From a bacterium (GTDB lineage: Bacteria > SZUA-79 > Acidulodesulfobacterales > Acidulodesulfobacteraceae), in NCBI GenBank assembly GCA_021812245.1, contig JAKAOK010000003.1:68528-112915 (forward strand): a DNA stretch of 44,388 nucleotides. The letters are read 5' to 3'. The notes under the pieces were generated by a model that was given only the letters and a program-made list of their open reading frames with translations, was not told the DNA's origin and searched no databases. Made by a program: the position numbers and the translations under genes. Numbering within the stretch: the first letter of the stretch is position 1; each line of letters begins with the position of its first letter. Of the stretch, positions 28,954-29,550 are shown piece after piece.

Positions 28954-28981
28954 ATTATATCACATTTTTTTTCTTTATCAT
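28954..28981 (-). promoter_or_regulatory. Predicted trp operon promoter (extended -10)
   Basis: On the - strand TATAAT (28954-28959) is preceded by TGA, giving a TGnTATAAT extended -10. A weaker -35, ATGATA (28976-28981), sits 16 bp upstream. The transcription start should fall near 28947, about 4 nt before the trpE ATG. The -35 lies 15 bp from the edge of the MITE-like element. Confidence 0.55.
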
Positions 28982-28995
28982 AGTTTATGCCTGTT

Positions 28996-29154
28996 CCCAA
29001 ATCCCGATTTAGAAAATATTTAATAAATTCCAATATCCCGTCATTGCGAGCGCAGCGAAGCAATCTAAAACGAGATTGCTTCGCTGCGCTCGCAATGACG
29101 TTATTAAGTAATTCAGGTAATTCATATATAAAAATTTCTAAATCGGGATTTGGG
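28996..29154. mobile_element. 159-bp MITE-like element
   Basis: The perfect 20-bp terminal inverted repeats are CCCAAATCCCGATTTAGAAA (28996-29015) and its exact complement (29135-29154). Outside both ends stands the same pentamer, CTGTT (28991-28995 and 29155-29159), as expected for a 5-bp target-site duplication. The element has no coding capacity. A perfect 28-bp palindrome occupies its centre. It sits between rplQ and the trp promoter, so it may also affect transcript ends there. No transposase in this window matches it. Confidence 0.75.
29039..29100. repeat. Perfect 28-bp inverted repeat with 6-nt loop
   Basis: Left arm 29039-29066 (beginning CGTCATTGCGAGCGCAGCG) and right arm 29073-29100 are exact complements around AAAACG. 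Palindromes built from TCATTGCGAG...GAAGCAATCT are, as I recall, scattered through many unrelated bacterial genomes as small mobile repeats. It would form a very stable RNA hairpin but has no following T-run, so it is not a standard terminator for the ribosomal operon. Confidence 0.85.
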
Positions 29155-29178
29155 CTGTTTAAATTACCGTATTTTGTT

Positions 29179-29550
29179 TTAAGACCGCTTTTCTTCTTTA
29201 GGAATAAATTCTATCAACCCTAAGGGACTTGCATCTCCGGCTCTATATCCTGTTTTAATGATTCTAACATACCCGCCAGGCCTACCCAAAAATCTCGGAC
29301 CTAAATCCTTAAAAAGTTTGGTTGTCGCATTTTTGCTTCTTAGCCGCGAAAATGCGATACGCCGCCTCGCGGTGGTATCGGATTTGCCGAGCGTAATAAG
29401 CCTTTCTATATAGCTTCTCAACACTTTAGCTTTTGGCAAAGTCGTCTCAATCCTTTCAAACTCGATAAGAGAAGAGGCCATATTCCTTAAAAGAGCAGCC
29501 CTATGCGATGAAGTCCTGTTTAATCTGGTTTTGATTTTCCCGTGACGCAT
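29179..29550 (-). CDS. rplQ: Large ribosomal subunit protein bL17
   Basis: 123 aa, beginning [17 protein letters not shown], the family's invariant start, with [12 protein letters not shown] and the C-terminal [17 protein letters not shown]. It is the last gene of the alpha operon, 30 nt after rpoA. No intrinsic terminator follows directly; a MITE-like element lies 24 nt downstream. Confidence 0.97.

Follow-up and report, generated by a model that had tools for sequence, protein, structure and literature searches.

The spacer between rplQ and trpE in the stretch of DNA analysed here (44,388 nt; hereafter the window) very probably holds a composite, non-autonomous MITE of IS1380 type, which a partner element would mobilise in trans and which carries a dimer of an independent repeat, REP-A. 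The initial annotation of the window had already read this piece as MITE-like, and this reading is supported by copies of its ends across the genome, by target duplications that differ from copy to copy, by a transposase gene between the same ends, and by empty sites in relatives. In the following, G000 denotes the window's own assembly (1,780,313 bases in 61 contigs) and the other G numbers the genomes compared with it; C and L numbers denote contigs and loci.

Structure of the element

The MITE spans positions 28996-29154 of the window (159 bp), as read from the sequence and checked by script. The 20 bases at one end are the perfect reverse complement of those at the other, which no longer holds at 21 bases, and CTGTT flanks it on both sides. 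It encloses a 62-bp palindrome composed of two exact 28-nt arms around a 6-nt loop, AAAACG, each arm being one copy of REP-A (Table 1). The initial annotation had described both the perfect ends flanked by CTGTT and the exact 28-nt palindrome, and both were confirmed. Folded as RNA, the insert reaches -91.6 kcal/mol (z -15.1 against 200 shuffles), and covariation in the TIR arms among nine sequences agrees with paired arms. The MITE is non-coding, and the open frames crossing it are mechanical.

Table 1. Features of the MITE and its surroundings, in window coordinates
Feature	Position	Strand	Basis
Promoter-like site upstream of trpE and outside the MITE: ATGATA-16-TATAAT, second hexamer preceded by TG	28954..28981	-	Promoter scan and spacer comparison
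Target duplication CTGTT, left	28991..28995		Sequence; empty site of G009 and G006 has AACAG once (reverse strand)
Left 20-bp TIR, CCCAAATCCCGATTTAGAAA, TIR-I type	28996..29015	+	Sequence, genome-wide copies
Left subterminal body of the MITE	29016..29038		Common to other A-type copies
REP-A, first copy, CGTC tag outward	29039..29066	+	Exact arm, genome-wide copies
Loop AAAACG separating the two REP-A copies	29067..29072		Script check
REP-A, second copy, CGTC tag outward	29073..29100	-	Exact arm, genome-wide copies
Right subterminal body of the MITE	29101..29134		Common to other A-type copies; aligned with REP-free copy
Right 20-bp TIR, exact inverted copy of the left TIR	29135..29154	-	Sequence, script check
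Target duplication CTGTT, right	29155..29159		Sequence, script check
rplQ, final gene of the alpha operon; neighbouring context	29179..29550	-	Gene found in 14 of 16 genus genomes, G000 among them

Copies of the ends and their target duplications

The 20-bp end occurs in 127 copies (60 + 67) in G000 at three or fewer mismatches, and the 28-mer REP-A in 48 copies (22 + 26) at the same threshold. Because the reversed controls gave 0 in both cases, neither the end nor the inner repeat is a product of chance. A blastn search with the window element and short flanks gave 140 matches in G000, a number in which many places are counted on both strands, since the query is palindromic. Several contigs of the assembly start within 200 bp of a TIR-I end (C6:176, C12:196, C22:112, C25:117, C26:7); therefore the repeats probably break the assembly, and the copy counts are lower bounds.

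From 298,102 fetched bases of the 1,780,313, taken around the listed repeat places, we drew 62 TIR-paired units, each defined by two facing ends of TIR-I or a related kind; one of them is the partner IS described below. Exact duplications flank 31 of the 62 (5 bp in 22, 6 bp in 8, and 7 bp in 1), whereas 2000 shuffles of the right flanks gave 0.82 on average and at most 5. When an offset of 0-1 base was allowed, the count was 38 of 62 (shuffled mean 1.44, maximum 6). The remaining 31 units had no exact duplication, and 24 had none even with the offset; we read units without duplications as old, chimeric or recombined, or mis-paired. The duplications comprise 30 distinct 5-mers, so that the many end copies with differing short flanks for which the initial annotation had proposed a search are indeed present. 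The 40-bp flanks of the units are 74% AT, compared with 62% for all fetched bases. Among 58 loci of the relatives, 47 held one TIR-paired unit each, and in 17 of these a 5-bp duplication was exact. The other 11 loci gave no TIR pair and do not enter the duplication count.

A probable partner element of the IS1380 family

A 1613-bp unit at C19:38406-40018 of G000 is bounded by window-type TIRs (one mismatch) and a 6-bp duplication, CTTTAC, and encodes an intact 416-aa transposase. The protein scored 290.6 bits against NF033539 (IS1380; cut-off 180) and 143.4 bits against PF13701 (cut-off 34.7). A transposase gene between the same ends, another expectation of the initial annotation, thus exists in the genome, and the unit is probably the autonomous partner of the window MITE. 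Only the TIRs are common to the MITE and the IS, so that simple internal deletion does not account for the MITE. The autonomous IS also adjoins a 150-bp MITE (C19:38406-40173), and CTTTA is common to both, i.e., the same target was used twice.

A transposase search of the named genomes gave four loci. G023, from another genus, carries a 94%-identical transposase between ends of the same kind (CCCTAATCCCGATTTAGA..., with CCCT replacing CCCA), and G015 has a broken copy (80-85%) between TIR-I ends with two mismatches. Only one intact transposase with the same TIRs was found in G000, and the MITE-rich G006, G012, and G001, all incomplete assemblies, gave no transposase copy at E<=1e-10; these null results count against the partner reading.

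Further IS1380-type elements have other ends. The second such element of G000 (C19, 33% identity) has ends CTTTAATTTTGCAATAGAAA and a 5-bp duplication, those in G005 and G002 (36-37%) have ends of the AATTTGCCGATAGAAA kind, and those in G021 and G023 show further kinds. Across the eight elements with clear ends, some of which are listed under several loci, the ends appear to differ along with the transposase; L117/L205, L126, L132, L133, L136, and L140, with no trusted ends, and the doubtful L121 and L138 were left out of this comparison. The ends of TIR-II MITEs (CCTTAATCCTGCATTAGAAA) have no exact IS match, and those of the TIR-IIb variant (CCTTAATTTTGCAATAGAAA) are one base off the second G000 IS.

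Insertion site and empty sites in relatives

Both rplQ and trpE lie on the minus strand, with the MITE between them. The probable start of trpE is MPLTPILNYDD; a 551-aa frame that begins with TTG inside the palindrome was rejected as a mechanical extension, as G009, G006, and others have an upstream stop in frame. Thirteen of the 14 genus genomes with rplQ are relatives of the window's genome, and 12 of these have a readable rplQ-trpE spacer. None of these 12 carries the window element. From the rplQ stop to the trp anchor there are 55-56 nt in G009, G006, G008, G010, G012, and G001 but 220 nt in the window, and in the two nearest relatives (G009 and G006) the spacer is shorter by exactly 159 + 5 bp. 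The empty site in these two is TTTAAACAGGCATAAAC with a single AACAG, and the window reads, on the reverse strand, AACAG-element-AACAG. By this comparison, the copy is evidently a plain insertion with a 5-bp duplication. The initial annotation had proposed looking for the empty site in a close relative, and this check came out in favour of a MITE. Two further copies in G000, C36:32367 and C36:34777, likewise correspond to empty sites in G009, G006, G008, G001, and G010, the first of them also in G012.

The element is also absent from the diverged spacers (72-87 nt) of G003, G014, G002, and G004, and the longer spacer of G005 yielded no ends of this kind accompanied by a duplication. In G015 (L109), another MITE occupies the spacer: it is 166 bp long, has perfect ends of its own (CCCAAAATTGCCGATAGAAA), is flanked by a CTAAA duplication, and contains a dimer of a second repeat, REP-B. 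The rplQ-trpE spacer has thus been struck twice independently, in G000 and in G015.

According to the initial annotation, the insertion separates the alpha operon from the trp promoter. This location fits: all 13 readable spacers, counting that of the window, have an extended -10-like sequence, TGNTATAAT, upstream of trpE. By itself, however, the promoter scan found one site against 1.3 expected by chance and is therefore not above chance. The MITE lies upstream of this conserved sequence, and therefore trp is probably still transcribed. The hairpin would sit in any read-through from the alpha operon, and we infer from this that it may affect trp expression.

The inner repeat REP-A inside and outside the element

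Within G000, 29 of the 48 REP-A copies lie between two TIRs, 5 beside one, and 14 have none within 250 bp. All 18 paired copies between two ends have their tags outward, and 11 more between ends have no partner within 120 nt. The copies without ends include 10 solo copies and 4 in tag-inward pairs (of 14). The 26-mer core of REP-A was found in 30 of 291 sampled genomes, 15 of which belong to 15 other families. We inspected 20 REP-A places outside the genus, 19 in four other families and one in another genus of the same family, and no TIR-I end at five or fewer mismatches lay near any of the 20. At 17 of them no ends were recognised. In G255, from another family, REP-A dimers (C7; L251, L252, L253) lie between unrelated facing ends, GTACAACTCCAC (one mismatch or fewer), which enclose three of the eight REP-A places of that genome. 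REP-A is thus evidently wider in distribution than the window-type MITE and apparently able to exist without it.

Measured against the published description of CGTC REPs, REP-A has the CGTC tag, an outer stem of 5 bp, and a tail CT in place of CCA, and the monomer folds no better than its shuffles (z +0.94); it falls outside that definition. A plasmid search returned one Novosphingobium record, which matches the inner palindrome only, and a phage search gave no match to the element. Six Rfam hits up to E 1, three of them to microRNA models, were all below the gathering scores and were rejected as generic hairpin matches.

A sister repeat, mixed ends, and REP-free copies

REP-B occurs in 57 copies in G000 at three or fewer mismatches (control 0). 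It has a TGTC tag, an 8-bp stem starting with AT, a 4-nt GAAA loop, a CCAG tail, and a stable fold (z -5.8), and it agrees with the description of CGTC-1 REPs in the accessible text of PMC3733652. Two ends enclose 34 of the 57 copies, 14 lie beside one end, and 9 have none; all 30 paired copies have their tags inward, and the other 27 are unpaired. These copies are found between TIR-I, TIR-II/IIb, and TIR-III ends as well as in a mixed I/II unit (C25:52713-52897), and the genus has an IS1380-type element with similar ends for each of the three kinds of ends around REP-B dimers.

Three units of G000, namely this mixed unit, C47:5706-5937, and C25:5893-6073, combine a TIR-I end with a TIR-II-like end on the opposite side and look as though they had recombined through the core. 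By eye, C25:42260-42487 (228 bp) differs from C25:80510-80692 (183 bp) by a third-level palindrome of about 45 nt inside the REP stem, and similar palindromes within palindromes within a MITE were seen at C4:26544, C18:23674, and C16:4846.

MITEs without REPs were also found. G012 has an 87-bp copy (L186:567-653) with an ATTCA duplication, which, when aligned with A-type copies, is without the REP-A part and a few adjoining bases, and two of three REP-B elements in G019 have ACTTAATATTGGAAT at the position that REP-A occupies in A-type copies. These copies support the interpretation that they represent what an empty site of REP-A inside the MITE would look like. Other short copies without REPs (99, 91, 90, 98, 101, and 107 bp) retain a portion of a GTCATT or CAATGAC motif and resemble deletions; the 87-bp copy could be one too. 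A search of 26 genomes for the REP-A-free joint CTTAATATTGGAAT gave three hits, of which the two outside G000 had, by eye, no MITE around them, and no clean pre-insertion copy was found by this search.

The initial annotation had suggested that the inner palindrome might be an older mobile repeat, with one element nested in another. REP-A copies outside TIR elements, their presence in other families, and the REP-free MITEs bear this out, and they support REP-A as an older dispersed repeat nested inside the window MITE.

Proposed origin of the composite element

Based on these comparisons, we propose that the IS1380-family transposase of C19:38406-40018 would bind the 20-bp ends in trans, excise the unit with whatever lies between them, and reinsert it with a 5-6-bp stagger, leaving a 5-6-bp duplication in mostly AT-rich DNA. 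This transposase is the likely mover of the window MITE. The window copy would have entered the rplQ-trpE spacer in the G000 lineage at a position upstream of the probable trp promoter, thereby introducing a very stable hairpin. The interior of the MITE would be free to change, so that REPs and further small palindromes could accumulate between the ends: the window MITE carries the tag-outward REP-A dimer and its sister type the tag-inward REP-B dimer. We infer that the REPs entered the MITE after it had formed.

The inner palindrome may, though we consider this unlikely, have originated within the MITE through hairpin-templated copying, by arm correction or template switching, in which case the solo REP-A copies would be MITE debris or escapees. 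The often exactly complementary arms are as expected from copying, small palindromes lie within palindromes at several levels, and the contrast between outward tags inside TIR elements (18/18) and inward tags outside them (4/4) indicates that the MITE form is not simply a free dimer moved in. However, copying within the MITE is difficult to reconcile with a REP-A core that reaches 15 other families and with 20 inspected places where TIR-I ends are missing, while the MITE itself matched one of 16 other genomes outside the family (E 4.5e-6), these 16 being distinct from the 15 genomes with the core. Furthermore, for 10 REP-A copies in G000 there is no partner in the nearest 120 nt and no TIR in the nearest 250 bp, although some of these copies lie in clusters of degenerate repeats.

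Two further explanations dispense with an IS1380-type MITE. A REP/RAYT system, in which a Y1 (HUH) tyrosine transposase would move the unit as a REPIN-like dimer, is highly improbable: the core is formed by REP-like dimers and G000 has one Y1_Tnp gene (a 245-codon frame at C25:19494-20228, or L247:695-1429), but the unit has TIRs of DDE type and 5-6-bp duplications, and the REP-A-rich G006, G009, and G012 (incomplete assemblies) yielded no Y1 gene. Membership in a REPIN/RAYT system, in which repeats flank the Y1 gene, was rejected on the exact core motifs of REP-A, REP-B, and TIR-I, none of which occurs in the 2.5 kb around that gene. Scarcely any weight can be given to a resident regulatory hairpin of the rplQ-trpE boundary, a terminator or attenuator that was never mobile. 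Its fold is very stable and it sits just upstream of trpE, but the 12 relatives with a readable spacer all lack it, some 60 similar units occur at other places in the fetched stretches, and the scan shows no terminator-like site. These results refute this origin; a secondary effect of the element on expression is possible.

Comparison with known systems

Members of the IS1380 family are about 1.6-1.9 kb long, have ends starting with CC, and make 4-5-bp duplications. The partner element resembles them in exceeding the curated cut-offs, in its length of 1613 bp, in its CCC ends, and in its short duplication, but the duplications here are 5-6 bp, 6 bp for this copy and mostly 5 bp for the MITE copies. 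Unlike these ISs, the window element is gene-less and has only the 20-bp ends in common with them. MITEs with a resident partner IS are termed type I in the accessible text of PMC3542288, and RUP, NEMIS, ERIC, and Nezha are bacterial MITEs named in the corresponding text of PMC3733652. The window element is like bacterial MITEs in size (70-300 bp), TIRs, target duplication, high copy number, and hairpin formation; it and its relatives differ from them in a core of REP dimers and in having one type of body under several kinds of TIRs. The main text of a 2024 review of prokaryotic MITEs (PMC10969869) is without the word IS1380, and a literature search of titles and the beginnings of abstracts, with subscription journals mostly outside its range, returned no IS1380-type MITEs carrying REPs among the matches listed.

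CGTC-tagged REPs, which include RPE-4/RPE-6 and Neisseria dRS3, are defined in the accessible sections of Di Nocera et al. 2013 (PMC3733652) by an 8-9-bp stem starting with AT, a 4-5-nt loop, a CCA tail, and a CGTC/TGTC tag. Those sections describe them as having no associated transposase genes, and how they move is left open there because no transposase flanks them. REP-B is like them in its TGTC tag, 8-bp AT stem, 4-nt loop, CCA tail, and tag-inward dimers. REP-A is like them in its CGTC tag and the AT at the foot of its stem, but unlike them in its 5-bp stem and the lack of CCA. Whereas CGTC REPs have no link to a transposase in that text, the dimers found here lie inside TIR elements with a likely partner IS.

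The occurrence of REP-B under several kinds of TIRs, together with the mixed I/II unit, amounts to chassis swapping. On this basis we tentatively suggest, as a reading with somewhat less than an even chance, that CGTC-type REPs spread here as cargo of IS1380-type MITEs and switch vehicle between kinds of TIRs served by different IS1380-type elements. The REP dimers would give otherwise different elements a common homology in their middle, through which the vehicle could change. Against this suggestion stand the copies without ends (9 of 57 for REP-B and 14 of 48 for REP-A), the non-canonical form of REP-A, and the 17 of 20 outside places with no recognised ends. If it holds, the REP would be a module parasitic on MITEs that are themselves parasitic on ISs, and the same may be true in other bacteria. 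The presence of CGTC-1-type REPs inside IS1380-type MITEs makes the published puzzle of REP movement testable, and palindromes around REP dimers in other genomes are possible undetected MITEs. With 127 end copies in one assembly and sister genomes with empty sites, the genus is also a rich natural set for dating insertions.

The closest published parallels are in section 7 of PMC3733652, whose accessible text describes CGTC-1 dimers inside 41-bp palindromes in H. neapolitanus and GTAG-15 dimers inside long palindromes in A. variabilis. As here, REP dimers lie within a larger palindrome; in contrast, that text gives no link to TIRs or an IS and reports that palindromes free of REPs were not found, whereas in the present case ends and duplications are seen, together with a partner IS and copies that lack REPs. 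Taken by itself, the window element is ordinary, as MITEs with partner ISs are well known. Less ordinary are the nesting of REP dimers in MITEs whose ends, duplications, and partner IS can be identified, and a cargo that swaps chassis.
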